Source: Pseudomonas putida (GTDB lineage: Bacteria > Pseudomonadota > Gammaproteobacteria > Pseudomonadales > Pseudomonadaceae). From it: a stretch of DNA of 64,000 bases. The notes beneath the pieces are model-generated. The model saw only the letters and a list, made by a program, of their open reading frames with translations. It was not told the DNA's origin and made no database searches. The stretch lies in contig NZ_CP011789.1 of assembly GCF_001636055.1 (NCBI RefSeq), positions 5,208,001-5,272,000 on the forward strand. The letters run 5' to 3'. Each line of letters opens with the position of its first letter. Within the stretch, counting starts at the first letter, position 1. A program made the translations under genes and the position numbers. This document shows, piece after piece, positions 44,901 through 64,000 of this stretch.

Positions 44901-45668
44901 CTACGCCCGCACATAGCGCTGGCGCAGCACATCACTGAAGGCATCCACCAGCAACACCAGCACCAGCATGCCGATGATCACCGTGCTGGCCTGGGCTTCC
45001 TGGAACAGGCTGAGGGTGGTGTAGAGCATCTGCCCCAGCCCGCCCGCGCCGACGAAGCCCAGCACACTGGCCATGCGGATGTTGTTCTCCCAGCGATACA
45101 GGCTGTAGGCCAGCAACTGCGGCCACAGATTGGGCAAGGTGCCAAAGCAGAACGCCGCGACCTGGCTCCCGCCCTGTAAACGAATCGCCGCCGCCGGCTC
45201 TGCCGGGGCATTCTCCAGCGCCTCGGCGAACAGGCGCCCCAGCACGCCAGCGGTATGCAGCGCCAGGGCCAGGGTGCCGGCATTTGGCCCGAGCCCGGCT
45301 GCCAGCACGGTCAAGGCCGCCCACACCAGCTCAGGAATAGCCCGCAGGGCATTGAGCAGCAAGCGCGCCGCACCCTGTAGCGGCCAGCCGAAGCGCCCGG
45401 CCGCAGGCAATGCCAACAGCAGGCCGAGCAGCATCGCCAGCAAGGTGCCCAGCCCGGACATGGCGAGGGTCTCCAGCGCACCGCGCGCCACTGCACGCAG
45501 GTGCTCGGAAGAAAGATCGGGGCTCAGGAAACGCGAGGCGTACTCGCCCATCTGCGCCAGGCCACCATTGCCGTTGACCGACGCAAGGTCGAGTTCCAGG
45601 TAGGCGAACGACGACACCACCGCCGCAACGATGGCGACGATCACCAGCAGGTTGATCGCCCGGTTCAT
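44901..45668 (-). CDS. ABC transporter permease, putative selenate/phosphonate type (2)
   Basis: Protein of 255 aa from ATG 45668, PhnE/BPD_transp family. About six TM helices; the EAA-like loop is ALENAPAEPAAAIRLQGGSQ and is followed by FVGAGGLGQMLY. It overlaps the upstream permease by 4 bp. It is the last gene of a four-gene ABC operon: substrate-binding protein, ATPase, permease, permease. Confidence 0.9.
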   Translation of the reverse strand: MNRAINLLVIVAIVAAVVSSFAYLELDLASVNGNGGLAQMGEYASRFLSPDLSSEHLRAVARGALETLAMSGLGTLLAMLLGLLLALPAAGRFGWPLQGAARLLLNALRAIPELVWAALTVLAAGLGPNAGTLALALHTAGVLGRLFAEALENAPAEPAAAIRLQGGSQVAAFCFGTLPNLWPQLLAYSLYRWENNIRMASVLGFVGAGGLGQMLYTTLSLFQEAQASTVIIGMLVLVLLVDAFSDVLRQRYVRA

Positions 45669-46492
45669 GTCAGCCTCCCGCGCAACACGCGGCTCAACAC
45701 ATCGGCCAGGGTCACCAGTACGAGAAACGCCAGCAGCATGCTCGCCACCTCGGCGCCAGCGAACATGCGCATCGACAGGTCGATCTGCTGCCCCAGCCCA
45801 CCGGCACCGACAAAGCCCATCACCACCGAAGCTCGCACCGCGCATTCCCAGCGGTAGACCGTGTAAGACACAACCTCCGCCGCCGCCACCGGCAGGATGC
45901 CATAGCAGAACGCACTCAGCCGCCCGCTGCCGGCCTGCATCAAGGCATGAGCCGGGCGCTGGTCCACCGACTCGAAGATCTCGGCATAGACCTTGCCAAG
46001 CATGCCGCTGTAGGTGATGGCGATGGCCAGTACCCCCGCTGTCGGCCCCAGCCCCACGGCGCGCACGAACAACAACGCCCAGACGATCTCCGGCACGCTG
46101 CGCAGGAACACCAGCAGGCCGCGTACCGGCATGCGCACCAGCCGCGACCAAGGCCCCGGGCGACCGGCGCGGGATGCCGCCCTTAACGACAATGCCCGGC
46201 TGCCCAGCAGGCTGGCCGGGATGGCCAGCAGCAATGCCAGGGTCATGCCGGCAGTGGCCACGGCAAGCGTCTGCAGGGTGGCTTCGAACAGCAACGCCAG
46301 AAACTCCCGATCATGGGCAGGCGGCCAGAAGGCGCCAACGAAGCTTGCCATCTGTCGACGGTTCTCGGCCTGCAACAGCACCCCAGGGTCGAGTTCGCTC
46401 AACTGCAACCCCGGCCACAACAGGGCCAGGCACAACAGGGTCAGCAACAGGCGTGGCAGCGCCGCTGGGTCGCGGGCATCGGTCTTCAGCAT
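45665..46492 (-). CDS. ABC transporter permease, putative selenate/phosphonate type (1)
   Basis: Protein of 275 aa, PhnE family, with EAA-like loop SVDQRPAHALMQAGSGR and FVGAGGLGQQIDLS. It is longer at its N-terminus than its partner and forms the second membrane subunit. It overlaps the ATPase gene by 7 bp. Confidence 0.9.
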   Translation of the reverse strand: MLKTDARDPAALPRLLLTLLCLALLWPGLQLSELDPGVLLQAENRRQMASFVGAFWPPAHDREFLALLFEATLQTLAVATAGMTLALLLAIPASLLGSRALSLRAASRAGRPGPWSRLVRMPVRGLLVFLRSVPEIVWALLFVRAVGLGPTAGVLAIAITYSGMLGKVYAEIFESVDQRPAHALMQAGSGRLSAFCYGILPVAAAEVVSYTVYRWECAVRASVVMGFVGAGGLGQQIDLSMRMFAGAEVASMLLAFLVLVTLADVLSRVLRGRLT

Positions 46493-47280
46493 CGCGGAAT
46501 CTGCACCGTCAGCGTCGGCCCCACGGTCGTCGGCGACGCCAGTTGCTCATTGGCGTAGAGGGCGTCGAGCAAGGCATCGGTCACCGCCGCTGCCGAGCAA
46601 TCGAACACCACACGCCCTTCGCGGATACCAATCACCCGGGGAAAATGCGCGAGCGCCAGCTCCACCGCATGCAGGCTGGCGACCAGTGTCACGCCATGGG
46701 TTTGCGCGTGGCGATTGAGCAGGGCCAGGCTGTGATCAGCCAGCACCGGGTCCATCGCCGAGACCGGTTCGTCGGCCAGCAGTACTTCAGGTTGCTGGTA
46801 CAGCGCACGGGCGATACCCACCCTTTGCAACTGGCCACCAGACAACTGCCCGCACTGCACGAACAGCTTGTCGGCCAGCCCCAGCTCCGCCAGCACCTGT
46901 CGCGCGCCCGGCACATCGCTGGGGTGCAGCAGATTGAGCAGGCCGCGCAAGGTGCCCCACTGGCCAAGACGCCCGGCCAATACGGCGGTGACCACCCGCT
47001 GGCGCGGCGGCAACGGCGGTGCCTGATGCACCAGCGCGACCCGCGCCCGCAGGCGTTGTCGCGCACCTGCCGACAGAGCCCAGGGCTGGTCGCCAAGCAA
47101 TTCCAGGTGCCCGGCGCCGGGCTGCACGGCCGTAGCCATCAGGTGCAGCAGGCTGGACTTGCCCGCCCCCGACGGCCCGATCACCGCCACCCGCTCGCCC
47201 TTGTCGATGCGCAGACTCACGTCTTCGAGGGCGCGTACCTGGCCGTGCCGAAGCCCTGCCGCGTGCAGTTGAATACTCAC
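46486..47280 (-). CDS. ABC transporter ATP-binding protein (PhnC-like, putative selenate)
   Basis: Protein of 264 aa with Walker A GPSGAGKSSLLHL (about 34-46), signature LSGGQLQRVGIARAL, Walker B VLLADEPVSAMDP and the switch His in ASLHAVELAL. All nucleotide-site residues are present. It overlaps the binding-protein gene by 4 bp. Confidence 0.92.
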   Translation of the reverse strand: MSIQLHAAGLRHGQVRALEDVSLRIDKGERVAVIGPSGAGKSSLLHLMATAVQPGAGHLELLGDQPWALSAGARQRLRARVALVHQAPPLPPRQRVVTAVLAGRLGQWGTLRGLLNLLHPSDVPGARQVLAELGLADKLFVQCGQLSGGQLQRVGIARALYQQPEVLLADEPVSAMDPVLADHSLALLNRHAQTHGVTLVASLHAVELALAHFPRVIGIREGRVVFDCSAAAVTDALLDALYANEQLASPTTVGPTLTVQIPRC

Positions 47281-48131
47281 TTGAGCAAGCCGGCCTCACG
47301 GGCAGCCTGTTCGGTGCCGGCGTAGTTTTCGGGTTTGGTCTCGATGAAGCGGCTGGCCGCCTGCAGGTCGAGGATCGCCTTGTGCTCAGGCTTGGCCGGG
47401 TCGAGGGCGAGGAACGCCTGCTTGATCTTGTCTTTCAGGGCCGGGTCCATGTTGCCGCGCACGGTCCAGTTGTAGTCGTAGTAGGTCGGCGTGGTGGCGA
47501 ACACTTTCACCTTGCTGGTGTCGACCTTGCCCGCATCGACCAGCTTCTGCCAGACACTGGCGTTGAGTACGCCAGCATCGACCTTGCCCGCCTGAACCCA
47601 GGCCACGGTGGCGTCGTGCGCGCCGGAATAGGCAACCCGACTGAAGTAGCTCTCAGGCTTGATGTTGTCTTGCTTGAGCATGAAATAGCGCGGCATCAGG
47701 CTGCCGGAGGTCGAGGAAATCGAGCCGAAGGCGAAGGTCTTGCCCTTGAGGTCGGCCAGGCTCTTCACGTCCGGGTTGGCGGTGATGAACTTGCTGGTGA
47801 ACTGCGCGTCCTGCTCGCGCTGCACCAGCGGTGTGGCGGTCGGGTCCTTCAGGTGCACCTGGACGAAGGTGAAGCCACCCAGCCAGGCAAGGTCCAGTCG
47901 ATTGCTGGCCAGCGACTCGACCACCGCCGGGTAGTCGGCGACCGGTACGAACTGCACCTTCATGCCCAGTTGCTGCTCGAGGTATTCACCCAGCGGCTTG
48001 AACTTGCGCAGCAATTCGGTCGGCGCTTCGTCGGGAATCGCGCTGACCCGCAACGTGTCGGCGGCCTGTGCGATGACGGCGCAGCAGGACAGCACGAGGC
48101 CGGCGGCGAGCGCCAAGGGGCGTTTGAGCAT
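47277..48131 (-). CDS. putative selenate ABC transporter substrate-binding protein
   Basis: Protein of 284 aa from ATG 48131 with GGAG 7 nt upstream; signal peptide [24 protein letters not shown]. It belongs to the PhnD-like fold ([33 protein letters not shown]). The family is the one assigned by NCBI as putative selenate-binding because of its recurrent pairing with selD. That pairing holds here: selD starts divergently 124 bp away. Phosphonate or phosphite is the alternative ligand. Confidence 0.85.
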
Positions 48132-48255
48132 GGGAGTTCTCCGGTTCAATAGCGGGGAAAGTGCCGGCGACGCACCGACTGCGGGAATTATAAGAGCCGA
48201 TGGCGCAAAGGCCAGCTTTGCTACAATCGCGCAACAATTGGACCCCGAGGTACCT

Positions 48256-49290
48256 ATGAGCGAGCCGATTCGCCTGACCCAGTACAGCCACGGCGCAGGC
48301 TGTGGCTGCAAGATCTCCCCCAAGGTGCTGGATGTGATCCTTGCCGAAAGCGGCAGCCAGGCGCTGGACCCCAAGCTCTGGGTCGGCAACGCCTCGCGTG
48401 ACGACGCTGCCGTGTACGCCCTGGACGACGAGCGCGGGGTGGTCTCGACCACCGACTTCTTCATGCCCATCGTCGACGATCCGTACGACTTCGGCCGTAT
48501 CGCCGCGACCAACGCCATCAGCGACATCTACGCCATGGGCGGCGACCCGCTGATGGCCATCGCCATCCTCGGCTGGCCAGTCAACGTGTTGTCGCCTGAA
48601 GTTGCCCGCGAGGTGATCCGTGGTGGGCGTGCGGTCTGCGCCGAAGCGGGCATTCCACTGGCCGGCGGCCACTCCATCGATGCGCCCGAGCCGATCTTCG
48701 GCCTCGCGGTGACCGGCGTGGTCGGCAAGCGCAATCTCAAGCGCAACGACACCGCGACCGTCGGCTGCACGCTGTACCTGACCAAGCCTCTGGGGATCGG
48801 CATCCTTACCACTGCCGAGAAAAAATCCAAGCTGCGGGAACAGGACCAAGGCCTGGCGCGCGACTGGATGTGCACCCTGAACACACCCGGCAGCCGCTTC
48901 GGCAAGCTCGACGGGGTCAAGGCCATGACCGACGTGACCGGCTTCGGCCTGCTCGGCCATCTGGTCGAAGTCGCCGAAGGCAGCGGTCTCACCGCGCGCC
49001 TGCAGTTCGATGCGGTACCGCGCCTGCCGGGTGTCGAGCACTACCTGGCCGAGGGCTGCATCCCCGGCGGTACCCTGCGCAACCACGAAAGCTATGGCCA
49101 CAAGATCGGTGCCCTTAGCGATGAACAGAAGCACCTGCTGTGCGACCCGCAGACCAGCGGTGGCTTGCTGGTGGCGGTGAGCCCAGAGGGTCAGGCGGAG
49201 TTTCTGGCGATCGCCGCTGAACTGGGCCTGGATCTGGCGCCGATCGGCACGCTGGTCGAGCGACAGACCTACGCAGTCGAGGTGATTTGA
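48256..49290 (+). CDS. selD: selenophosphate synthase SelD
   Basis: Protein of 344 aa from ATG 48256 (GAGG 7 nt upstream). The catalytic Cys16 and Lys19 are in GAGCGCK, so it is a cysteine form, not selenocysteine. [10 protein letters not shown] and [15 protein letters not shown] hold the metal-binding Asp residues. It makes selenophosphate from selenide and ATP. No selA, selB or selC is visible in the window. The next gene, mnmH, uses the product for tRNA 2-selenouridine. Confidence 0.96.
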
Positions 49291-50393
49291 TGCGCCCCGA
49301 CTGCACCGACTTCAAACAGCTGTTCCTCGACGATGCGCCGATGATGGACATGCGCGCACCGGTCGAGTTTGCCAAGGGCGCCTTCCCCAGCGCCATCAAC
49401 CTGCCGCTGATGAACGACCAGGAGCGGCAGAAGGTTGGCACCTGCTACAAGCACCAGGGCCAAAGCGCAGCCATCGCCCTGGGGCACCAACTGGTCAGCG
49501 GCGCGGTCAAGCAGGCGCGCCTGGAGGCCTGGGCCGCATTCGCCCAGGCCCATCCCCAGGGGTATCTTTACTGTTTTCGTGGCGGCCTGCGCTCGCAGAT
49601 CGTCCAGGGCTGGCTGAAAGAGGTGGGCATCGACTATCCGCGGGTCAAAGGCGGTTACAAGGCCCTGCGGACCTTCCTGATGGACACCACCCAACAGGCG
49701 GTCGAGCAATGTGACTTCGTGCTGCTGGGCGGCCTGACCGGCACCGGCAAGACCGACGTGCTGCTGCAACTGGACAACGTGCTCGACCTCGAAGGCCACG
49801 CCAACCACCGCGGCTCCAGCTTCGGCAAGCGCGCCACCGTGCAACCGGCACCGATCGATTTCGAGAACCGCCTGGCCATCGACGTGCTGAAAAAACGCGC
49901 GCGGGGCGTGCAGCAGTTCGTGCTGGAGGACGAGGGGCGGATGGTCGGCAGCTGCTCGGTGCCGCTGGCGCTGTACCAAGGCATGCAGCAGTATCCGCTG
50001 GTGTGGTTGGAGGACAGTTTTGCCAATCGCGTCGAGCGCATCCTGCGCGACTACGTGATCAACCTGTGTGCCGAATTCGTTGCCCTGCATGGCGAAGAGG
50101 ATGGGCGCCGCCTGTTTGCCGAGCGCCTGCGTCAAAGCATGGGCAATATCCACAAGCGTCTGGGGGGCGAACGCTTCCAGCGGCTGTATGGGCTGCTGGA
50201 GCAGGCGCTGCAAGTGCAGTTGCACAGCGGTGAGGTGGACCTGCACCGAGGCTGGATCGAGGGTTTGCTCAACGAGTACTACGACCCGATGTATGCGTAC
50301 CAGCGTGAGGCGAAGTCGGGCAGGATCGAGTTTGCCGGTGATGCACTCGAGGTGCGGGAGTACTTGAAAGCACGGGCGATGCGCCGGCGCTGA
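49290..50393 (+). CDS. mnmH: tRNA 2-selenouridine synthase MnmH (SelU)
   Basis: Protein of 367 aa. The N-terminal rhodanese domain has the catalytic Cys in [10 protein letters not shown] (about residue 96). The P-loop [11 protein letters not shown] (about 150) starts the ATPase-like domain. It converts 5-substituted 2-thiouridine-34 to 2-selenouridine via a geranylated intermediate. The start overlaps the selD stop (TGATG), so the pair is translationally coupled. Confidence 0.95.
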
Positions 50394-53760: not shown

Positions 53761-55140
53761 CTAGAGCATCGCCAGCAGTCGTGTCCAGCGTGCCTCCTCG
53801 AGTCGCGGGTTCATAACGCACAGGCGCATGACTGTCTGCCCCTGCCACTCACTTGGCACCACCAGGGCAATTCCCTCCTGCAAGCACCGTTGCGCCCAAT
53901 CGTCGTAGTCCGGTGCCTGCCAGCCCAGACGCCTAAACAGGATGACACTCAGCCCTGACGCCTCGATCAACTCCAGTCGTGGATGCTCGGCGATACACGC
54001 CCGCAACCGCTCGGTGAGGGCCAGGACCTGCTCCAGGGTGTCCTGATAAGCACGGGTACCATGTACCGCCAACGAAAACCAAAGCGGTACCCCCCGGGCG
54101 CGCCGGGACAGATGAAACGCGTAGTGCATCGGGTTGCAGGCTTGCGAGGCGTTGATCCGATCAAGGTACACGGCATCCTGGGTGAAGGCGGCGGGCACTT
54201 CCTCGGGCGCGGCGTACAGCAACGCACAACAGTCGTAGGGGACGAACAGGCCCTTGTGCGGATCGATGATCAGCGAGTCGGCGAGCTCGATCCCCTGAAA
54301 GCGATCTCGCACACTCGCAGCGCAGAGAAATGCTCCGCCGTAGGCCGCATCCACATGCAACCATATCTGCTGCTGGCGTGCGATGCGCCCAATCCCAGAC
54401 AGCTCGTCGATCTGCCCGGTATTGGTCGAGCCCGCCACCGCCACCACCGCCACCACGTGTTCAGAACGCCCCTCGGCGGCCAGTGCGGCCAAGGACTGCG
54501 CCAAGTTCGCGGCAGTCATCCGGCCAAGCGCATCGGCGGCCACTGTCACCACCTCGAGGTCCAGCAGGCCGGCACTCACGACGATGGAAGAATGCGCGCC
54601 CTCGGTGGCCAGCAACACTCCGTCACGCTCTCCTCCCCGTGCCCGATAGCGTTGCCGAGCCGCAACCAGCGCAGAGAAGTTGCCAGCCGTTCCGCCACTG
54701 ACGAAGCAGCCTGCGGCCTGGGCAGGCAAACCGGCAAGATCGGCCAGCCAGCGCAGGGCCTGGTTCTCGGCCCAGATCAAACCCGCCCCGCCCAGCCAGC
54801 CCGAGCCAATCATGCCGCTGGCCGACAGCAGCCCATCCATCAATGCCGCTTCCGGTGTCGGCGCCGAGCCGATGTAGGCCAGATAACCTGGGTGATCAGT
54901 GGGCACACCCTGACGGCTGAGCACTTCAGTGAAGAGCTTCAGCGATGCCTGCAAGCCGAGGCCCTGTGCCGTGATGCAGGCACCGACCTGGGTTTGCAGG
55001 GTCGCAGCCGAGGCGGGTGCCGCCATCGGCGCACGCTGGCCGAGCAGCGCCTGACGCATCGCCTCCAGCATCAGCTCAAGCGATTCATGCGTCAGGCCGG
55101 CGTCGCCGATGCCGGGCAGTGCGGGGTTTGGTGCGCGCAT
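53761..55140 (-). CDS. PLP-dependent group II decarboxylase
   Basis: Protein of 459 aa from ATG 55140 (MRAPNPALPGIGDAG), AAGGA about 10 nt upstream. Motifs: FVSGGTAGNFSAL (148-160), the PLP-ring Asp264 in LHVDAAYGGAF, and PLP Lys296 in IDPHKGLFVPYDCC. The fold is that of aromatic-amino-acid, glutamate and 2,4-diaminobutyrate decarboxylases; substrate not predictable. It is the last gene of the cluster, two bases after the ligand-binding-like gene. It could decarboxylate a pathway amino or hydrazino acid (inference). Confidence 0.88.
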   Translation of the reverse strand: MRAPNPALPGIGDAGLTHESLELMLEAMRQALLGQRAPMAAPASAATLQTQVGACITAQGLGLQASLKLFTEVLSRQGVPTDHPGYLAYIGSAPTPEAALMDGLLSASGMIGSGWLGGAGLIWAENQALRWLADLAGLPAQAAGCFVSGGTAGNFSALVAARQRYRARGGERDGVLLATEGAHSSIVVSAGLLDLEVVTVAADALGRMTAANLAQSLAALAAEGRSEHVVAVVAVAGSTNTGQIDELSGIGRIARQQQIWLHVDAAYGGAFLCAASVRDRFQGIELADSLIIDPHKGLFVPYDCCALLYAAPEEVPAAFTQDAVYLDRINASQACNPMHYAFHLSRRARGVPLWFSLAVHGTRAYQDTLEQVLALTERLRACIAEHPRLELIEASGLSVILFRRLGWQAPDYDDWAQRCLQEGIALVVPSEWQGQTVMRLCVMNPRLEEARWTRLLAML

Positions 55141-55142
55141 GT

Positions 55143-55958
55143 TCAGGACATCCTTGTAAGCAGAGAGGCGGCGCTTCGATAATCGCGCCGCACCAGGGTA
55201 AAACCGGCATGCCGGTGCTCGCCGGCCTGGAAGTCGGGGTGGCTGCGCAGGTACTCGGCAACGCTTCGTCCCTGGGCGATGGCGGTCTCGACGTGACCGA
55301 GCGCCAGGCGTACGCACGTGCCGAAGTCCGGAGTAGCGTGTGGGCACAGCGTCGACAACTCGTAGCCCTCGAGCAGCACATCGAACTCATCGATCACACA
55401 GTCGTCAGGCAGCAGGTACAGAGTGTCGGAGCGGCCATGTAGGCGGATCTGCTGTGCAACCTTGACGTGTGAGCCCATCAACGCATGGATCGGCGGCCCG
55501 GCGCGCGGCTGCGGCACCTGACCAACGCCAGCCCGCAGCGACTGTGCCAGGCGCTCGCCGTAGACCGAGCCATCCGACCAGACCTCTTCGAGGTACCCTG
55601 ATGCACTGGCAAGGTACTCCAGCATCGCTGCGACCTGCTGCCTCTCGCTTGCACACAGCCGGTACGCACCGACGGCCTGACACAGGTCTGGCGCCGTGGC
55701 GGCGGGCAGCAACAAGGGCACGCCCGCCGCCTGATACAAAGCACCCGCGACACGCGCGCACTCGCTGTTGAAATGCCCGACCACCGCACTCACACCGGCC
55801 TCCAGCAAACGCCGGGCAGCGACCAACGCCAAGGCCGGATCGGCGCCATCGTCCGCCCAGCACACTCGCAGCGTCGTGCCACTGGCGGCCCGGCGCAACC
55901 ACCGACCATAGGCCGCACGCGGGCCGGTGAATGGACCTACTATGCCGACCTGTTCCAC
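55143..55958 (-). CDS. LivK/AmiC-like ligand-binding protein lacking a signal peptide
   Basis: Protein of 271 aa beginning at a GTG that touches the stop of the cupin-MetRS gene (TGAGTG). It has the periplasmic-binding-protein type 1 fold: VGIVGPFTGPRAAYG at residue 4, LALVAARRLLEAGVSAVVGHFNSE (about 44-67), GVPLLLPAATAPDL and SDTLYLLPDDCVIDEFDVLLEGY. LivK-type solute receptors are about 370 aa and exported. This one starts directly at the first beta-strand, so it should stay in the cytoplasm, and it is about 100 residues short. It may be an AmiC-like sensor or a binding/carrier protein for a pathway intermediate. Confidence 0.75.
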   Translation of the reverse strand: MEQVGIVGPFTGPRAAYGRWLRRAASGTTLRVCWADDGADPALALVAARRLLEAGVSAVVGHFNSECARVAGALYQAAGVPLLLPAATAPDLCQAVGAYRLCASERQQVAAMLEYLASASGYLEEVWSDGSVYGERLAQSLRAGVGQVPQPRAGPPIHALMGSHVKVAQQIRLHGRSDTLYLLPDDCVIDEFDVLLEGYELSTLCPHATPDFGTCVRLALGHVETAIAQGRSVAEYLRSHPDFQAGEHRHAGFTLVRRDYRSAASLLTRMS

Positions 55959-57962
55959 TCAGGCACGCTCCGGCATCAACCGTTCCAGCGTCTTGGCGCA
56001 CATCGTCGGTAGCCGCAAGCCACCTTGGCAGGGGAGCACCTGGGTTGCATCGAAGAATGCGCAAGCCTTGGCGGCATCCTGCTCAGGGGCTTCCAGGCCG
56101 AGCCATTCGGCCAACTGCTGGGCGAGGTCAGGTGCCAACGGCGCCAGCGCATGGGCCAGCCAACGTGCAGTCAAGGCCTGAAGCGCCACAGCAGTGCGGG
56201 CATGATTGGACCAAGGCCCCTGCCCTGTATCCACCAGGTAGACCTGGGCCAGGCCGAAACGCGCCACACGGTCGATCACCTGGGCCACTTGCTCGGCCAT
56301 GCGCCGTGGCGAGAAGCTATCGAGCGACGCCGCCTGGCGATAGCTCTGCATCCATTGGCACAGTTCGTCGTAGTAGGCCTTGTGGTCTGCCAACCAAGCG
56401 CCCGGCTCCGGCACCTTGCCTGCCTGTCGCGCCAGGCTGCGCTGCAGGCTCTCGGTCCAGTCGGACAACTGCTGGGCGAACAAGGTGTTGATCCGCTCGC
56501 TGATCCGGGCCACGGTGAAGTCGCTGCGAACACCCTCGGGACGGGTCAGCATCAGCGCCATGCGGGCGTAGTCGCGTCCCGCCTCGGCCAGGAAGTCCTT
56601 GCCCCAGATCAGGTGGCGACGGCTGGTAGAGAACTTGCTGCCATCGAGGTCAAGCAGTTCGTTGACCACGTGATGACCCGGCGGTGTGAGCCCCAGCGCC
56701 AGATACACCGCGGGGAACAACAGCGTGTGGTAGTAGGCGTTGTCGAAGCCATAGCAGTGAACGATATCCATCGCCCCCGAATAGCACTGGGCGGCTCGCG
56801 CCAAACGATCCTGGCCGGCGACCGGCAACTCGCCGGCAGCCCACAGGTAACCGAAGGCCATTTCGAACCACACATACAGGATCTGGTCCTGGAACCCTGG
56901 CAGGCGGTGCCGTATACCCCAGTCGCTGCGGTGGCTGATGCAGATATCGGGCAGGCCCTGGACAAGCATGGAATGGCACAGCTGATAGACATGTGCCGGC
57001 ATGCTCGCCGTCTGTACATACTGGGCCAGTTCATCGGCCAGCGCGCTCAGGCGGAAGAACAGGCGCGGCTCGATCTTCAGCTGGGGCTGGCGACCATCGC
57101 GCTTGACCCGTGGCTGGGACAGGTCGACGCACTGGTTAGGCCGGCCACAGGCTTCGCAGGCGTTGCCATCACTGCTCTCGCCGCAATGCGGGCAGCCGCC
57201 ATGAATGAACGCCTCGTGCAAGGCATCACCGCGGTCGTCGACGAATACCGGGGTGTCCTTGGCATAGATCAGGCCTTTGTCATGCAGGCGTTGCAGGTAC
57301 TGATGCACGAAATCGGCATAGGCACCCTGGTTGTCCGGGGTGATGAAAAGGTCCATGTCGATGCCGAACATGCCCCAGGTGTGGCGGATCGCTTCGGCAT
57401 AGTGCTCGGCGCAGTCGACGGCTGTGCGGCCTTCCTTCGCCGCGCAGGTGACCACATAGGTCTGGTTGTCATCCCGGCCACTGCCATAGAACGCCTTTGC
57501 CCCTGCACCTGCCAGAACGCGCTTGAGCACGTCGCCCGCAACATAGGGGCCGCTGAGATGGCCAAGGTGCAGGTCGCCATTGGGCGTGGGAGGAGTGGCG
57601 AAAATCAGTGTGTCGCGCACAGGCTGCACGGCCACCGGGTTCGCGGTACCGGCATCCCAGTACAGCGAGTGAAACTGCAGGGGTGCGTCTTCACTGAGGT
57701 TGTGCACGGTGTGCGATTCGAAGCGCTGGCAATGAACGGCGTCACCCGCCGTTACTTGCAGCGATTCGTTCGCGGTACGCACCACGCCATGCCCGGCGGT
57801 GAACACGAAGATTTCATCTTCGAAATGATTGTGCGCCTGGCTCTGCTCGCCTGGCGCCAAGGTACACCCCATCAGGTTGAGGTTCGAGCCTGGCAACTCG
57901 ACGGCACGGGCGTGGACATTGTAGAAGCGCTTGGCAGGGGAAAACATGTTGATCTTCTTCAC
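55959..57962 (-). CDS. cupin::MetRS-like didomain hydrazine synthetase (Spb40-like)
   Basis: Protein of 667 aa from GTG 57962 (KKINMFSP follows); the frame continues 10 codons to GTG 57992 with no SD. The cupin domain spans residues 1-110, with metal ligands His44, His46, Glu50 (AHNHFEDE) and His87 (HTVHNLS). The MetRS-like domain follows: HLGH (132-135, class I HIGH), a four-Cys zinc knuckle (Cys257, 260, 269, 272) and KFSTS (443-447, class I KMSKS). This architecture is known from Spb40 (s56-p1) and the formycin, pyrazofurin and triacsin clusters. There the synthetase half activates an amino acid onto N6-hydroxylysine and the cupin rearranges the ester to an N-N bond. It is not the housekeeping MetRS. 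Confidence 0.88.
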   Translation of the reverse strand: MKKINMFSPAKRFYNVHARAVELPGSNLNLMGCTLAPGEQSQAHNHFEDEIFVFTAGHGVVRTANESLQVTAGDAVHCQRFESHTVHNLSEDAPLQFHSLYWDAGTANPVAVQPVRDTLIFATPPTPNGDLHLGHLSGPYVAGDVLKRVLAGAGAKAFYGSGRDDNQTYVVTCAAKEGRTAVDCAEHYAEAIRHTWGMFGIDMDLFITPDNQGAYADFVHQYLQRLHDKGLIYAKDTPVFVDDRGDALHEAFIHGGCPHCGESSDGNACEACGRPNQCVDLSQPRVKRDGRQPQLKIEPRLFFRLSALADELAQYVQTASMPAHVYQLCHSMLVQGLPDICISHRSDWGIRHRLPGFQDQILYVWFEMAFGYLWAAGELPVAGQDRLARAAQCYSGAMDIVHCYGFDNAYYHTLLFPAVYLALGLTPPGHHVVNELLDLDGSKFSTSRRHLIWGKDFLAEAGRDYARMALMLTRPEGVRSDFTVARISERINTLFAQQLSDWTESLQRSLARQAGKVPEPGAWLADHKAYYDELCQWMQSYRQAASLDSFSPRRMAEQVAQVIDRVARFGLAQVYLVDTGQGPWSNHARTAVALQALTARWLAHALAPLAPDLAQQLAEWLGLEAPEQDAAKACAFFDATQVLPCQGGLRLPTMCAKTLERLMPERA

Positions 57963-57972
57963 GGTCGTCTCT

Positions 57973-59037
57973 CTATCCTTGAGTGATTTCACGAGCGAGG
58001 GTCATGGCAGCGTAAGGCGCCATCTTGAAGCCACCGCCGCTGAAGCCTGAGGCCAGCAATACCCCATCCGGCAGGCCAGGCTGCTGGCCGAGCACGGCGA
58101 TCGGTTGGGTGCTGTAGCAGTCGCTGTGGCACAACGCGCCATCCATCTGGGCATGGCGTAACCACGGGAAACGCAGTTGGCCGCGCTCGCGGGTACGCTG
58201 CACATGCGCAGGATCGGCCGGGGCGTAGGCGTGGCTGGCCGGTACCCGCTGCCCAGTAGGATGGCCCACATAGAACCCCTGGGTCAGCGGGCACCAACGG
58301 CCGTTCAGATCGTGCTCGTCGTCGATAAAGCACGGCGCCGTCAGCAATGCTGCCTCACCTTTGAAACGGGTGACCTGGATGTGCTGGTTCCACAGGCCAA
58401 ACGCCTGCCCGAACTGCGTCTGCACAAATTCTGCAGTCGCGTTCCCCATCGCCAGCACCACATGCGTGGCTGCATGCTCGCCGGCAGTGGTCTGCACGCC
58501 GACTACCCGTCCCCCGGCGCCATCGAGGTTCAGGCCCTGCACGCGCACGGCATCACGGTAGACACCACCGTTGGCAATCCCCGCGCCGACCAGGTATTCC
58601 AGGGTAGGACGTGCCTGCATATAGCCCGAGCCCGGTTCAAACAGCGCTTGCTCGGCGCTGATCGCAAAGCCTGGATAATGCGCCGCCAGTTGCTCTGGCC
58701 CGACCAGCTCGGCAGGCACGTCGTGCTCGGTGAGCCAGTCGTGCATGCGCGCCAGGGCTGCGGGCTCGGCGAAATGCAGGTAGCCGGTGCGGGCGAATGG
58801 CACCTGCGCCGTGTCCGCCAACTGCCGGTAGAAGTGATACCCCTGCGCCGCAGCAGCAGTGGCTGCTGCGTGACTGTGAGCGACCCGCACGATACACCCG
58901 GAAGCGCCGGTGATGCCGCACCCCAGCGGCTTCTCGTCGATCAGAAGGCAGCGCTTGCCCATATCGCCGAAGATCTTGAAACAGGTGGCGCCGATGATCC
59001 CGGCGCCGACGATGATTACGTCAAACGGCTTGCTCAT
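57973..59037 (-). CDS. FAD-dependent amine/D-amino-acid oxidase-type enzyme
   Basis: Protein of 354 aa of the DAO family. The FAD Rossmann motif GAGIIG is at residues 11-16, and the second FAD contact region GVLLASGFSGGGFKMAPY lies near the C-terminus. It resembles glycine/sarcosine oxidases. It overlaps the N-hydroxylase stop by 17 bp and ends 11 bp before the cupin-MetRS GTG. In the homologous triads (Spb39, ForL) the FAD enzyme oxidises the hydrazine-linked lysine adduct and frees a hydrazino acid plus aminoadipate semialdehyde; that role here is inferred. Confidence 0.85.
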   Translation of the reverse strand: MSKPFDVIIVGAGIIGATCFKIFGDMGKRCLLIDEKPLGCGITGASGCIVRVAHSHAAATAAAAQGYHFYRQLADTAQVPFARTGYLHFAEPAALARMHDWLTEHDVPAELVGPEQLAAHYPGFAISAEQALFEPGSGYMQARPTLEYLVGAGIANGGVYRDAVRVQGLNLDGAGGRVVGVQTTAGEHAATHVVLAMGNATAEFVQTQFGQAFGLWNQHIQVTRFKGEAALLTAPCFIDDEHDLNGRWCPLTQGFYVGHPTGQRVPASHAYAPADPAHVQRTRERGQLRFPWLRHAQMDGALCHSDCYSTQPIAVLGQQPGLPDGVLLASGFSGGGFKMAPYAAMTLAREITQG

Positions 59038-60340
59038 ACTGCCTCCGCGTCAGGCTGGCACACAGGTCGTCGACAATTTCGCCCGCACGAATGGCCATGT
59101 TGGAGATCAATGTGGCGCTCAGGCCATGCGAAGACTCGGCAATGCCGGTGGAGTAAAGCAGCGGCGCCGCTTCACCCTTGAAGGTCAGCCGATAGTGGCG
59201 CGACAGCCAGGCGCCACCTTCGTCCTTGACCAGTCGCGCGGCAAGCCCGCTGCACAGCAGGTCGGCGATGTTGCGTGGGCGAAATCCCGTTGCGCAGATC
59301 AGGTAGTCGCAGGCGATGCTCTGCACGTCACCACTGAGCTGTCGGCTGAACGTCACTTGCAGCTCATTCCCATGAGTGCTCGCCATCTGGAAACGACTCA
59401 GACGCTCCAGCACCAGGCGTTGCTGGCCGGTGACTTCATCGTCATACCACTGCCGGTAGAGCTTCTCGATCAGCGCCAGGTCCACTGCGGCGTAATTGGT
59501 AGAGGCGTGGACTCGCAGGACATGCTGGCGCACGTGGGGTGGCGCGGCATGGAAATCGTCGACGGCGTCGGCGTCGAAGATCTGGTTGACGAAGGGGCTG
59601 TCGTCGGCAGGCGTGTAGCCGTAGCGACCGAGGATTGCTGTCACCCGCAACGATGGGTAGGTCTCCAGCAGGTACTCCACCGCCTCGGCGGCGCTTTGTC
59701 CTCCTCCGACTACTACACAATGCCCGTCAGCCTTGGGCGGGGTTTCCTGCAAGTGCTTCAGCAAATGATGAACATGGGTAATGCGTGCGTCGGCGTGCAG
59801 GCCTTCCGGCAAGCGCGGCTCCAACCCCAGAGAGTGCACCACGGACCGGGTCAGCAGCGAGGTGGTGGTATCACCTACGCGCATCTCGATGCGCAACAGT
59901 GCTGCACCGTCGTCGCTGACACCGCCTTCGACGATGCGTATCACCTGGTGCCCGTAGTACACCTGATCACTGAACTCGGCCGCGCACCAGCTCAGATAGT
60001 CATGGAACTCCACGCGGGCAGGGAAGAAGTCCTTGCGGTTGCAGAACGCTGCAATCCTGCCCTTGCTGTGCAGGTAATTGACAAAGGTGAAGTGGCTGCG
60101 CGGGTTGCGGAAGCTGACCAGATCCTTGAGGAAGGACACCTGCATCGTCGCATTCTTGAACAGCATGCCCTTGTGCCAGGCAAAGCCGGGGGCGCTGTCG
60201 ACGAACGCGACATCCAGTTGCGGTGCCATTTCCTGGAGTGCGATGGCGAGTGCGATGTTCGAAGGGCCGAACCCGATGCCCACCACATCGTGAACCTTGT
60301 GCTCGCAAGGGCTTCTGGCCAAGTCTGTTGCAAAACTCAT
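59021..60340 (-). CDS. flavin-dependent lysine/ornithine N-monooxygenase
   Basis: Protein of 439 aa from ATG 60340 (GGGAG 5 nt upstream). FAD site GIGFGPSN (21-28), substrate-loop region FLKDLVSFRNPRSHFTF (70-86), NADPH site GGGQSAAE (212-219) and the ATGF motif (350-353) identify the IucD/SidA/PvdA class of amine N-hydroxylases. No siderophore NRPS or IucA/C gene is nearby. The neighbours are the oxidase and the cupin-MetRS, so L-lysine N6-hydroxylation for hydrazine formation is the likeliest role; ornithine cannot be excluded. Confidence 0.9.
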   Translation of the reverse strand: MSFATDLARSPCEHKVHDVVGIGFGPSNIALAIALQEMAPQLDVAFVDSAPGFAWHKGMLFKNATMQVSFLKDLVSFRNPRSHFTFVNYLHSKGRIAAFCNRKDFFPARVEFHDYLSWCAAEFSDQVYYGHQVIRIVEGGVSDDGAALLRIEMRVGDTTTSLLTRSVVHSLGLEPRLPEGLHADARITHVHHLLKHLQETPPKADGHCVVVGGGQSAAEAVEYLLETYPSLRVTAILGRYGYTPADDSPFVNQIFDADAVDDFHAAPPHVRQHVLRVHASTNYAAVDLALIEKLYRQWYDDEVTGQQRLVLERLSRFQMASTHGNELQVTFSRQLSGDVQSIACDYLICATGFRPRNIADLLCSGLAARLVKDEGGAWLSRHYRLTFKGEAAPLLYSTGIAESSHGLSATLISNMAIRAGEIVDDLCASLTRRQYEQAV

Positions 60341-60444
60341 GTGAACTCCCTGTCTACAGAATTTCGGGCTGAGCGAGGCCACGGGAAGGTCATTACGCGA
60401 TGACAGTCCCGGGGGCCGGTTGGTTTTGCCTGAACGGTTGAGGG

Positions 60445-61440
60445 CTAGCCGAAGACGAAGGCGTCCGTCAGGTTGAGCGCCTGAAGCTGCGCGATATCTG
60501 CCTCCAATGCCTCGGCGCTGCTGTTACGCAGGAACACCGTGCAGCCATAGGTGGTACCGTCGGTGGTGGTCTGCACCCACTGGCCTGTCGGCGGCGCCAG
60601 GAAATAGTGGCTGAAGCTCGACAGCGCCCGCACCTGTTGATCGAAACGCATCGCCAGGACACGCCCAGGCCGGGTGATCACGAACGAGTAGTCGGCCACC
60701 GCCTGCGCAGCGCTCGCGACGTCAACTACCGGGCGCTTCTGCCAGAGATCCTGCTGGCTGGGCCAACCGCCAAGCTGGCATAGCTCAGGTAGTGGCGTAC
60801 TGGCCAGCCGTGGCGCCAGCTTGACCAGACGCGGCCCCTGCGCAGTGATCACCACTTCAGCGTGCAGTGGCCCGTACAGCAGGCCCAGGCCAGAGGCCAG
60901 CCGCGCTAGACGCGGCACCAGATCAGCAGGCAAGGCAGCGGGGGGCAAACTGGTTACCGCGGTGAGAATGCGCCGCGCCAGCCAGTCCTGGGTGTGGCAA
61001 CGCCACGCGTCACTGACCTGGAATTGCCCCTCCTCCAGTACCCCATTGATGAACACCGTGTAACCGGCTTCATGGCGGTGGACCAGCAAAGGCCCTGGCA
61101 CAACCTGCAACCCCGCTTCGGCAGCCGCGATGCCGTGCTCGCCCAGCAACACGGCGCAGCCCCGAGAGTGCGGTGAAATCGCCGGACGCACGACCCAATC
61201 GCCTTGCGTATATCCCGACAGCTCGGCGCAGGAGCCAAGCACCTGAGCGCTGAACGCCAGCCCTGGGTCGAGACGACTGAGCGCGCGATACTGCTCGCAC
61301 TTGTCGTAGAACACCGCAGGGTCGCAATCGGCGCGAAAGTACCCGGCTTCGATATTCTCCGGCATCACCTCACGCAGTTGCAGGTCATCGCTGGCCAGCC
61401 GGTACGCGGCGCGCGCAGGCGAATCGTAGGCCGGTTTCAT
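60445..61440 (-). CDS. divergent ATP-grasp-fold protein
   Basis: Protein of 331 aa. Segments recall the ATP-grasp fold: WVVRPAIS (82-89, lysine-loop region) and HRHEAGYTVFINGV (121-134). GPLHAEVVITAQGPRLVKLAPRLAS (190-214) corresponds to the usual Glu...EINPR metal site. The metal-site residues read K and A (KLAPR) where E and N are typical, and the N-terminal pre-ATP-grasp domain is short. Its function may be amide-bond ligation or a non-catalytic role. It overlaps the upstream SDR by 4 bp. A 104-bp gap (60341-60444) separates it from the hydroxylase. Confidence 0.6.
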   Translation of the reverse strand: MKPAYDSPARAAYRLASDDLQLREVMPENIEAGYFRADCDPAVFYDKCEQYRALSRLDPGLAFSAQVLGSCAELSGYTQGDWVVRPAISPHSRGCAVLLGEHGIAAAEAGLQVVPGPLLVHRHEAGYTVFINGVLEEGQFQVSDAWRCHTQDWLARRILTAVTSLPPAALPADLVPRLARLASGLGLLYGPLHAEVVITAQGPRLVKLAPRLASTPLPELCQLGGWPSQQDLWQKRPVVDVASAAQAVADYSFVITRPGRVLAMRFDQQVRALSSFSHYFLAPPTGQWVQTTTDGTTYGCTVFLRNSSAEALEADIAQLQALNLTDAFVFG

Positions 61441-62165
61441 TCGCCCAGTTCCGCACGGGTCGGGCCGCGAAAGTGCACGGCGTCGATATGGCAGTTGCGC
61501 GGCTGGGTCAGCACGAAGCGCATGGTTTCCCAGATGGAGCGGCCATTGAGCAACCGACCGGCAGGATCAACCGTTTCCTCGAGTCCGGTCACCTCGAAGT
61601 CTGGCGGATAGAATCCGGTGACGCGGATGTTCTCGGCAGCCAGATGGTGGGTCATGTTCTGGCAGAAGCCGCTCAGGCCATGCTTGGCGGCAAAGAACGC
61701 CGGATGCGCCACCGAATTGGTGAACTGTGGCACACCGCACACCGATACCATGGCCACGATATCTGCCGCAGCAGAACGTCGCAGGCTTGGCAGCAACGCA
61801 CGCGTCAGGGTGATCGAGCCGGTGAGCCCGGAATTGATGGTGCTGACAATGTCCTCGTCGCTGTCATCCTCGCCGAGCGGGCCTTCAAGCCACTGCGCAG
61901 CGCTGAGCACCAGGATATCCACAGGTCGCGCATCGGCTTGCAGCGCTTGGACGAAATCCCGTACCGAGGCAGGATCGGCGATATCACAGGCATACGCACG
62001 CGCCGAGCCACCCTCACCCTGGATGATCTCGCAGGTGGCCTGAGCGCTTTGCAACTGGCGCGCGCACAGGTCGACATGGGCGCCCTCGCGGGACAGCCAG
62101 ACCGACACGGCCTGTCCAAAGTCACGGCCACCACCGGTGACCACCACACGTTTGTCTTTCAGCAT
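61437..62165 (-). CDS. divergent short-chain dehydrogenase-like protein lacking the catalytic Tyr
   Basis: Protein of 242 aa from ATG 62165 (AGGAG 8 nt upstream). SDR fold is clear (VVVTGGGRDFGQA, ACDIADPASV, LTRALLPSLRR). The YxxxK motif reads FFAAK, with Phe at the catalytic Tyr position. The glycine motif has Asp at its third Gly (TGGGRDFG) and NNAG reads SAAQ. The fold is likely kept while the standard reductase chemistry is lost or altered. It is 14 bp after the intact SDR. Confidence 0.8.
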   Translation of the reverse strand: MLKDKRVVVTGGGRDFGQAVSVWLSREGAHVDLCARQLQSAQATCEIIQGEGGSARAYACDIADPASVRDFVQALQADARPVDILVLSAAQWLEGPLGEDDSDEDIVSTINSGLTGSITLTRALLPSLRRSAAADIVAMVSVCGVPQFTNSVAHPAFFAAKHGLSGFCQNMTHHLAAENIRVTGFYPPDFEVTGLEETVDPAGRLLNGRSIWETMRFVLTQPRNCHIDAVHFRGPTRAELGE

Positions 62166-62179
62166 CGTTGCGACTCCTG

Positions 62180-62881
62180 TCAAAGGCCCGGATGTGGAAC
62201 CGTGCGGCTACCTGAGGCATTTTCCTGGTAAAGCTGCCCGACGATGTAGTCGGCAGCATGTTCGGCCCACAACTGCGGTGCGATATAGTTTTGGTGTTCA
62301 TCAGGCAAGCACACCGAGAGCATCTGGGTATTGACCCCGTTACCCGGATCCAGAGCGATGGCGTTCACACCGTTGGGCAGGTCTGCAGCGAGTGAACCGA
62401 TCAACCCTTCTACAGCGAACTTGCTCGCGCAATACGGCCCCAACCCCCAAGAGGCCGAACGCCCCCAGCCGGAGCTGATGGCGATGAACAAGCCCTGGCC
62501 GCGGTCGAGCATCATCGGCAGGAAGGCATGCATCGTATTGACCACACCCAGCACGTTCACATCCAGTACCCGTGCCCATTCCTGCTCGGCGATTTCCCAG
62601 GCCGGTTGCCGTGGGTTGATGACCCCGGCGTTGCACACCACGATGTCCACCCCGCCGTCACGCATGACAGTCCTGGCGAACTCGCGCATCTCGTGAGCCT
62701 CGGTCACCGAGGCGTTGAACAGCGCCGGATTGTCAGTGGATGCAGACTGCGCCTCGGCCGACAGCTGACAGCCGAAGACCTGGTGTCCACGGGACGCCAG
62801 CGCCTGGCTGAGAGCTTTGCCCAGCCCACGGCTGACGCCAGTGACGACGATGCGTAATGGCCGATGTCGATGGTCGCTCAT
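62180..62881 (-). CDS. short-chain dehydrogenase/reductase (intact)
   Basis: Protein of 233 aa from ATG 62881 (AGGAGG 4 nt upstream). Nucleotide motif TGVSRGLG, structural VCNAG, catalytic Ser in ISSGWG and YCASK are complete. The cofactor preference is not obvious. It overlaps the HAD stop by 4 bp (ATGA). It would reduce or oxidise a carbonyl or alcohol of the pathway, substrate unknown. Confidence 0.88.
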   Translation of the reverse strand: MSDHRHRPLRIVVTGVSRGLGKALSQALASRGHQVFGCQLSAEAQSASTDNPALFNASVTEAHEMREFARTVMRDGGVDIVVCNAGVINPRQPAWEIAEQEWARVLDVNVLGVVNTMHAFLPMMLDRGQGLFIAISSGWGRSASWGLGPYCASKFAVEGLIGSLAADLPNGVNAIALDPGNGVNTQMLSVCLPDEHQNYIAPQLWAEHAADYIVGQLYQENASGSRTVPHPGL

Positions 62882-63612
62882 GAGTCCTCCTGGATAGTCT
62901 GTGCGACAAGATTGAAGCGCGTGATCGGTGCATCCGGCTGCAGGTTCTCGACCTCCCCCGCCCAATGCCCGACGGGCCAGCACTGGCTCAGGGCATCACG
63001 CTTGACCAGGGCGTGGCCACTGACAAACAGAAACGGCACATTGCAGACGATGGCAGCTTCGGCATCGGCGATCGCGTCACCGAGAAACACCGTTTCGCCG
63101 GGTGTGCAGTCGTACTGTTCAAGCAATGTGCGGATCGCTGCTGCCTTGGCTACCGGGGAGCCGATGATGCGCGCCAGATAGTGGTCCATGCCGTTGGCTG
63201 CCAGCGCCAGATTGATTTCCTTTTCATTGCCACCGCTGATCACCACGCATTTCACCGCGCAGTCCGCCAGTTGCTGCAACAGCGTTGCGGCACCGGCCAC
63301 CGGTGGCGCCGCGCTGTAGTGTTGTTGCAGGTAGTGCTCGTAACGGGCAATGCTGGTGCTGACGAAGTCCGCTTCGGCGGCCGTGCCGGCCAATGACTCG
63401 AAAGCCTCGAAGTGCCAACGCCGCGAACGCCCGAAGTTGAGCTTGAAACTGACCTTGCAGCGCTCGCGCAGTGCCGACGGATAGGCGGCCAGGGCGTGTT
63501 CGACGGCCGCCAGCTTCACACCGTTGGAGTCCAGCAACACACCATCGCAGTCGAAGAACACGAGTTTGCTGCCTGCCAGCCTGTCACCCAGCCTGGCCTG
63601 ATTGATTCGCAT
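62878..63612 (-). CDS. HAD-family hydrolase
   Basis: Protein of 244 aa from ATG 63612; a GTG three codons earlier sits 0 bp after the aldolase stop. Motif I VFFDCDGVLLDS (nucleophile Asp), motif II ISGG, and motif IV FLGDAIADAEAA are present. It is of the phosphatase/phosphonatase-like subclass with a helical cap. It is expected to dephosphorylate a small molecule of the pathway. Confidence 0.87.
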   Translation of the reverse strand: MRINQARLGDRLAGSKLVFFDCDGVLLDSNGVKLAAVEHALAAYPSALRERCKVSFKLNFGRSRRWHFEAFESLAGTAAEADFVSTSIARYEHYLQQHYSAAPPVAGAATLLQQLADCAVKCVVISGGNEKEINLALAANGMDHYLARIIGSPVAKAAAIRTLLEQYDCTPGETVFLGDAIADAEAAIVCNVPFLFVSGHALVKRDALSQCWPVGHWAGEVENLQPDAPITRFNLVAQTIQEDS

Positions 63613-63621
63613 GGCCCGCAC

Positions 63622-64000
63622 TCACATGTAGTGGTTGAGAATACTCGGGTCGTACTTGCCTGCCCCCGCGTGCCCGGCGATGCGCCCGAGAATATCGATG
63701 CGCTCGAGTGCCGAAAGCGGCGCACCTTCGAACAACTTCTGCGCATAGGTCGGGTGCACGTTGTGTTTTGCCTGGCAGCGGTAGGTCGGCGAGTAGCCCC
63801 AGTTGGCCTCTTGTCGCAGCGGCTCGATGTGCTCGGCGAGAAACCGCTCGCAGGACGCCATTTCCTGCTGGCCGGGCTTGAGCAAGGCCAAGGTCTCGGT
63901 CGGCGCATTGCCCGCACCGCGACCGATGCCGGCGAAGGTTCCGTCGACGTAACGAGCTCCGGCTTGCAGTGCCGCATGCGTGTTGGCAACTGCCAGCCCA
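63622..64000 (-). CDS. HMGL-like (DRE-TIM) aldolase, partial
   Basis: The 3' end (125 codons) of a gene that continues past the window. Read upstream of its internal TTG, the frame gives GLAVANTHAALQAGARYVDG then TFAGIGRGAGNAPTETLALL. This is the conserved C-terminal half of the metal-dependent pyruvate aldolases related to 4-hydroxy-2-oxovalerate aldolase. It ends NHYM and its stop abuts the HAD gene. It is the earliest visible gene of the operon; the N-terminal half and promoter lie outside. Confidence 0.8.
   Translation of the reverse strand, partial: GLAVANTHAALQAGARYVDGTFAGIGRGAGNAPTETLALLKPGQQEMASCERFLAEHIEPLRQEANWGYSPTYRCQAKHNVHPTYAQKLFEGAPLSALERIDILGRIAGHAGAGKYDPSILNHYM

Follow-up and report, generated by a model that had tools for sequence, protein, structure and literature searches.

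A twelve-gene por-type operon of Pseudomonas putida predicted to form a hydrazine from N5-hydroxyornithine and glycine

A stretch of 64,000 nucleotides from Pseudomonas putida (contig NZ_CP011789.1, positions 5,208,001 to 5,272,000; the window in what follows) carries three adjoining, intact minus-strand genes within 55959-60382. By their reading frames and Pfam matches they encode, in this order, a flavin N-hydroxylase (NMO), a DAO-family FAD oxidase and a didomain protein that joins a cupin to a methionyl-tRNA synthetase (MetRS)-like domain and is predicted to be a hydrazine synthetase (HS). The same-strand run continues beyond the right edge of the window and counts 12 genes in total, collinear with the sole HS locus of P. 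orientalis DSM 17489. We consider it likely that this operon makes a hydrazine from N5-hydroxy-L-ornithine and glycine. The original prediction, made on the window alone, had proposed that a Pseudomonas operon combines a hydrazine-synthetase triad with tailoring genes, and both the domain make-up and the 12-gene run agree with it. The limits it gave, 55959-60340, coincide with the stop of HS and with the start of NMO favoured by homology, but the run includes nine further genes.

A scan of genome contigs with the HS protein returned seven loci, four of which carry all 12 genes in collinear order: P. entomophila COR5 (L005), 'Pantoea sp.' Cy-639 (L006), P. orientalis DSM 17489 (L007) and P. atagonensis (L011). 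The P. orientalis genes share order and strand with those of the window and are 59-90% identical at the protein level (NMO 79%, HS 73%), although the species and the flanks differ. An ELFV-dehydrogenase gene precedes the P. orientalis set and found no match in L003, L004, L005, L006 or L011. The P. orientalis genome holds one HS, the remaining matches being a 25% identical MetRS and a fragment at 27%; this HS is an intact 667-codon frame (L007:10013-12016), and a TAG codon inside the match lies ahead of its start.

According to excerpts of a 2024 review (PMC11705231), the por cluster (JACS 2022) belongs to P. orientalis DSM 17489, Por9 is specific toward N5-hydroxyornithine, and Por11 joins N5-hydroxyornithine or N4-hydroxy-diaminobutyrate (DABA) with glycine. 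We read the wording on Por9 as ornithine hydroxylation. With one gene counted before DapA, the NMO, DAO and HS genes take positions 9, 10 and 11, as in Por9 and Por11; from this numbering and the single HS per genome, L007 is likely the por cluster. The same excerpts give WP_057724699.1 for the Streptomyces Apy10, one number after WP_057724698.1 of Por9, and this looks like the accession of Por10. Because of the collinearity with L007 and the chemistry reported for Por9 and Por11, we file the window operon as por-type and predict ornithine plus glycine as its substrates. It adds a further member to a cluster type already described, and the N-N chemistry itself is already in print. Lysine, the substrate expected in the original prediction, finds no support, since the P. 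orientalis orthologues are reported with N5-hydroxyornithine and glycine. The suggestion of an undescribed product fared better, as the review excerpts list the product of the orthologous cluster as unknown, although the cluster type had already been published as por. The earlier interpretation was thus right in kind and probably wrong in substrate and in the novelty it assumed.

The HS gene is a 677-codon frame with a Cupin_2 match (E 2.5e-10) followed by tRNA-synt_1g (E 4.8e-71), and the combination of an N-terminal cupin and a C-terminal MetRS-like domain, in one protein or in an adjacent pair, is a mark of hydrazine synthetases of this kind. Its start probably lies 10 codons inside the longest frame, the protein being 667 aa long in L005, L006, L007 and L011. 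Conservation of residues was counted on 120 homologues listed of 1165 found, with the numbering of the 677-aa form. In the cupin, His56, Glu60 and His94 are kept in 120/120 and His54 in 119/120; the ATP-site motifs HxGH and KFST are likewise present in all 120, and the Leu of HLGH in 113. In the structurally characterized RHS1 (PDB 5UQP), the zinc is held by Asp63, His65, Glu69 and His103, and Ala at any of these positions abolishes activity, as reported by Zhao et al. 2021 (PMC8664883). In the phmmer alignment, whose chain numbers are shifted by 3 judging from the residues named in that paper, Glu60 of the window protein aligns with Glu69 of RHS1 and His94 with His103.

A relative of the cluster in another phylum was found on a plasmid of Streptomyces sp. 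NBC_01483 (NZ_CP109439.1), where 11 of the 12 gene types lie within about 11 kb (about 991,900-1,002,900). Protein identities are 55% for DapA, 44% for SDR1, 43% for NMO, 40% for SDR2 and for the periplasmic-binding-protein (PBP)-like gene, 37% for the HMGL aldolase, 34% for DAO and for HAD, and 33% for the ATP-grasp-like protein; RhaM matches at 37% by tblastn, partly over its overlap with DapA, and by Pfam (rhaM, E 2.3e-16). The block DapA-RhaM-HMGL-HAD-SDR-SDR-ATP-grasp again follows NMO-DAO. The Streptomyces HS differs in being divergent and was matched as three pieces in three frames. The PBP domain stands in frame with a second DAO domain (Pfam names the DAO part only), and an asparagine-synthase-like gene of the amidotransferase type follows this PBP-DAO frame. 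No annotated feature overlaps the por-type stretch. The plasmid is linear, and the set spans L037 11496-26453.

The C-terminal domain of the didomain protein does match MetRS profiles, and the NMO is 38-41% identical to PvdA of the same genome, so that the pair might be read as a variant or resistance copy of MetRS beside a siderophore gene. We regard this as barely credible. All MetRS equivalog models match the HS below their cut-offs (e.g. 245/587 and 220/336 bits), and the true MetRS of the genome is located elsewhere and is only 25% identical to it. Grouping of the didomain protein with true MetRS had been set beforehand as a test of the original prediction, and in a 48-row tree built from 37 of the 120 homologues listed, the HS of 8 loci and 3 MetRS, the 3 MetRS split from the 45 HS rows at 100/100, with the por-type HS together on one side of the branch, set against MetRS; the protein was therefore rejected as a true methionyl-tRNA synthetase. 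PvdA is a separate gene in this genome as well (650 bits to PDB 3s5w). In the NMO tree (17 rows, one of them PvdA) the window NMO stands with the other por NMOs (100/99), and the next NMOs are those beside PBP-linked HS of Alphaproteobacteria and the Streptomyces plasmid (99/98), with PvdA outside; a strict grouping of the hydroxylase with siderophore enzymes had likewise been set beforehand as counting against the original prediction. The NMO was accordingly not taken as PvdA.

It is also conceivable, though unlikely, that the operon follows the Spb38-40 route, in which lysine and glycine give hydrazinoacetic acid and the lysine carbons are lost as aminoadipate semialdehyde. The same three families are at work there; Por11, too, is reported to use glycine (PMC11705231, excerpts), the solved structure that the NMO matches best is a lysine N6-hydroxylase, and a Spb39-type cut of an ornithine adduct would likewise yield hydrazinoacetic acid. 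The orthologues taken as Por9 and Por11 are, however, reported with N5-hydroxyornithine, and the NMO groups with the HS/PBP-linked NMOs, whereas its identity to the NMOs from HS clusters of Mesorhizobium, Rhizobium and S. lavendulae is only 26-30%. A different division of labour would have the triad alone make the hydrazine, the aldolase, HAD, SDR, RhaM and DapA genes forming a neighbouring module of sugar or surface-polysaccharide type. The best solved match of the HMGL protein is 3dxi, a 'putative aldolase', and putative aldolases of this kind often occur in surface-sugar clusters. In three alphaproteobacterial loci HS and NMO occur on their own, and the N-N step itself therefore does not require the module. 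The module and the triad occur together, however, in the window, in L005, L006, L007 and L011 and on the Streptomyces plasmid, and we find it rather improbable that they are unrelated.

Several observations weigh against an ornithine-glycine operon of por type. The equation of L007 with the por cluster is presumptive, drawn from the one HS in the genome plus the numbering. Among PDB entries the NMO scores highest with MbtG (355 bits), which acts on lysine, followed by KtzI (335) and PvdA (276), which act on ornithine, so that the sequence by itself leaves the substrate of the NMO undecided. Both trees carry a long-branch warning, and in the HS tree the row L025 is long and its join with P0119 is flagged. 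The phmmer alignment as printed pairs His56 of the HS with His64 of RHS1 and Asn55 with Asp63; His56 pairs with His65 only after one gap is moved, and Asp63 then faces His54. Three stretches of the MetRS domain, chosen by the pocket residues of MetRS and presumed to line the amino-acid pocket, do not differ between the window and L007 HS, but they are equally identical in L008 and L009 and therefore do not discriminate between substrates. The other three of the seven loci (L008-L010, alphaproteobacterial) share only NMO, HS and PBP, with DAO in two of them, and a match to the pyridoxal phosphate (PLP) decarboxylase is absent from the 41.6 kb of the Streptomyces plasmid that were read. The side on which the DAO cleaves is a guess.

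On balance we keep the ornithine-glycine assignment, and we infer the following route by analogy, transferring to the window operon the Por substrate pair and the mechanism from ester to cupin that is in print for RHS1/PyrN. The NMO would hydroxylate the side-chain nitrogen of L-ornithine. The MetRS-like domain would then activate glycine with ATP and esterify the hydroxylamine oxygen, and the zinc cupin, with Glu60 as the key residue, would rearrange the ester to N5-(carboxymethylamino)-L-ornithine. For the DAO a role like that of Spb39 or Apy10 is predicted, oxidation of the hydrazine adduct; by an Apy10-like reaction on the glycine side it would leave 2-amino-5-hydrazinylpentanoate. Cleavage on this side is favoured because the operon encodes a PLP-dependent decarboxylase of the ornithine/lysine/DABA type. 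A small oxo acid with which the hydrazine could react is likely supplied and adjusted by the two pyruvate-type aldolases (DapA-like and HMGL-like), HAD and the SDRs, and the amino-acid-binding protein, having no signal peptide, probably serves to bind a small amino acid or hydrazino acid inside the cytosol.

Similar enzyme sets are described in the review excerpts (PMC11705231). Spb38-Spb39-Spb40 of s56-p1 and Tri26-28 of triacsin comprise the same NMO, DAO-type oxidase and cupin/MetRS-like synthetase with glycine as partner; they use lysine where ornithine is predicted here, and the likeness was drawn from the review's description and not from sequence. Apy9-Apy10-Apy11 of actinopyridazinone belong to the same families, and there the diamino-acid side keeps the hydrazine after oxidation, which is the model for the DAO step above; its substrates are DABA and alanine, unlike the ornithine and glycine predicted here. 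The ring closure of actinopyridazinone reportedly takes place on a carrier protein, to judge from the title of one paper.

As for the product, the precursors of pyridazomycin of Streptomyces violaceoniger, believed to be ornithine, oxaloacetate and glycine (PMC7347517), fit the reported por HS pair and the pyruvate-type aldolases. We propose, as a guess that is serious although doubtful, that the por-type set is a pyridazine pathway. The synthetase would couple ornithine with glycine, the oxidase would free or activate the hydrazine on the ornithine side, and the DapA-like and HMGL-like aldolases would form a pyridazinium from this hydrazine and a unit derived from oxaloacetate or pyruvate. 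Streptomyces, with its asparagine-synthase-like gene, might make pyridazomycin or a close relative, and Pseudomonas, with the PLP decarboxylase, a decarboxylated relative, a non-catalytic ATP-grasp-like protein and the cytosolic binding protein (fused to an oxidase in Streptomyces) serving as non-covalent carriers of the reactive hydrazine. The guess is a serious one because of the ornithine and glycine pair, the two aldolases and the amidotransferase-type gene in Streptomyces. Pyridazomycin carries a carboxamide, which would need an amidotransferase, and there is none among the annotated genes of the Pseudomonas operon. Negamycin, the hydrazide of methylhydrazinoacetic acid, was considered and dropped, as neither a methyltransferase nor an aminomutase is among the annotated operon genes. 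Among the titles and abstracts returned by searches of an open-access library, none names the product of a Pseudomonas hydrazine-synthetase cluster; subscription papers lay outside these searches, and work of 2025-26 may be missing from them.

Two accessory proteins of the operon are unusual. The ATP-grasp-like protein lacks the N-terminal part and falls outside the ATP-grasp ligases as that family is defined; among 7997 scored candidates, ten such proteins were found at 1e-5. Near the C-terminus, the four full-length ATP-grasp proteins compared all have V/L/M-E-x-[A/N]-x-R, versus V-K-x-[A/S/T]-x-R in three por-type rows and Streptomyces, and their ATP-site xxKP reads xxRP in the ATP-grasp-like protein. 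Both changes, Lys to Arg and Glu to Lys, occur in 8/8 rows of the aligned ATP-grasp-like set and in the Streptomyces row, and all four full-length proteins keep the original residues. We take the changed positions to be the metal-site Glu and the ATP-site Lys. The predicted model has a mean pLDDT of 62 in its C-terminal third and a best Foldseek match of TM about 0.4 (E 1.1e-8), which supports a partial ATP-grasp fold only. The gene is still constrained (dN/dS 0.21-0.22), and we regard its product as repurposed and not as a working ligase. When plasmids were searched with either ATP-grasp-like protein, the NBC_01483 record alone came up.

The PBP-like gene stands near HS in 11 of the 14 loci read. 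Its product lacks a signal peptide, has an amino-acid-binding fold among the fold matches listed, and represents a predicted cytosolic family of binding proteins that accompanies hydrazine synthetases across three phyla. At 1e-15 a search of 369 genomes of the class recovered it from its own genome only, and a plasmid search at 1e-8 recovered none, although direct comparison shows the 40% relative on the Streptomyces plasmid. Literature on a substrate-binding protein in hydrazine-synthetase clusters, or on a Pantoea cluster, was searched for and none was found. At the Salinarimonas HS locus (L008 8272-12855) there are NMO, HS and PBP matches and no DAO match, and by these matches not every member of the PBP-linked HS group has the oxidase. 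As for the aldolases, the best solved match of the DapA-like protein is YagE, and behind 3dxi the HMGL protein matches 4-hydroxy-2-oxovalerate aldolases.

The por-type cluster looks rare and patchy, because HS at 1e-100 or better occurs in 7 of 398 genomes of the genus (six at 73-100% identity, the own genome included, and one at 37%) and HS at 1e-60 was found in the own genome only among 398 genomes of the phylum. The distant 37% gene (L025), present in one of the 398 Pseudomonas genomes, is not por-type by identity. A plasmid search with HS gave 25 records, of which 20 were listed and six examined. A Pantoea ananatis plasmid typed as conjugative carries an NMO-cupin-MetRS-FAD oxidoreductase-MFS-ATP-grasp-substrate-binding protein-GNAT series with a split hydrazine synthetase (L032 5693-13744), and further Pantoea and Klebsiella plasmids are among the listed matches.

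The genes of the operon are transcribed in the order DapA-like, RhaM-like, HMGL aldolase, HAD, SDR1, SDR2, ATP-grasp-like, NMO, DAO, HS, PBP-like and PLP decarboxylase (Table 1), and their shared strand, overlaps and spacing suggest a single operon. DapA and RhaM lie entirely beyond the window end, as does about two thirds of the HMGL aldolase gene, which extends about 700 bases past it. All 12 genes have dN/dS of 0.03-0.27 against P. entomophila COR5 and P. orientalis (dS exceeds 1 in every comparison with the latter, so those ratios are rough), and for this reason they are not chance frames. By family matches, there is no membrane transporter and no DNA-binding regulator among the 12. Within the window the cluster has a GC content of 63.7%, compared with 63.4% at window positions 1-53000; past the window end, across RhaM, DapA and most of HMGL, it is 60.7%, and no sign of foreign DNA was seen in the composition of the cluster.

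Table 1. Genes of the operon in order of transcription. L003 is a stretch of the same genome beyond the window edge; its coordinates plus 52000 give window coordinates.
Feature	Position	Strand	Basis and remarks
DapA-like	L003:13036-13947	-	Pfam of the L007 orthologue
RhaM-like	L003:12641-13213 (open reading frame)	-	Likely 125-126 codons; Pfam of the L007 orthologue
DRE-TIM aldolase (HMGL-like, 4-hydroxy-2-oxovalerate-aldolase-like), 3' part	63622..64000	-	Whole gene L003:11622-12698
HAD-family phosphatase-like protein	62878..63621	-	Profile match
SDR1, short-chain dehydrogenase	62180..62983	-	Profile match; homology favours a later start
SDR2, short-chain dehydrogenase	61437..62183	-	Profile match
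ATP-grasp-like protein, N-terminal domain absent	60445..61440	-	Profile, alignment
Flavin N-hydroxylase (NMO), predicted L-ornithine N5-hydroxylase	59021..60382	-	Pfam Lys_Orn_oxgnase E 8.3e-100; likely start 60340 (439-aa form, favoured by homology)
DAO-family FAD oxidase	57973..59037	-	Pfam DAO E 4.5e-34
HS (zinc-type cupin N-terminal + MetRS-like domain)	55959..57992	-	Pfam; likely start 57962, 667 aa
PBP-like, signal-less type I periplasmic-binding-protein-like (amino-acid-binding fold), HS-linked	55143..55958	-	
PLP decarboxylase (diaminobutyrate/ornithine-lysine decarboxylase type)	53761..55347	-	Homology favours a later start

Upstream of the operon lies a very large autotransporter-type frame (L003 14593-19833, L004 3-8678) with C-terminal PATR repeats and an autotransporter beta-domain, followed by a terminator-like hairpin (2 found versus 1.1 expected). 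Scanning for promoters around the gap upstream of DapA gave 1 site versus 1.1 expected. Elsewhere in the window, at 44901-50393, a PhnCDE-like ABC transporter is divergent to selD and mnmH, and its binding protein matches TIGR04553, 'putative selenate ABC transporter substrate-binding protein', with 370 bits (cut-off 250); by these matches the region is likely a selenium uptake and use locus.

Eleven of the 12 gene types recur together in Pseudomonas and on the Streptomyces plasmid. This reduces the pathway to a core set that is conserved and suggests ornithine-derived pyridazines as a testable product class. It also exposes two unusual conserved accessory parts, an HS-linked family of cytosolic binding proteins and a degenerate ATP-grasp protein under selection. 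Since Pseudomonas hosts are easy to grow and to knock out, the origin of pyridazomycin-type rings could become testable.

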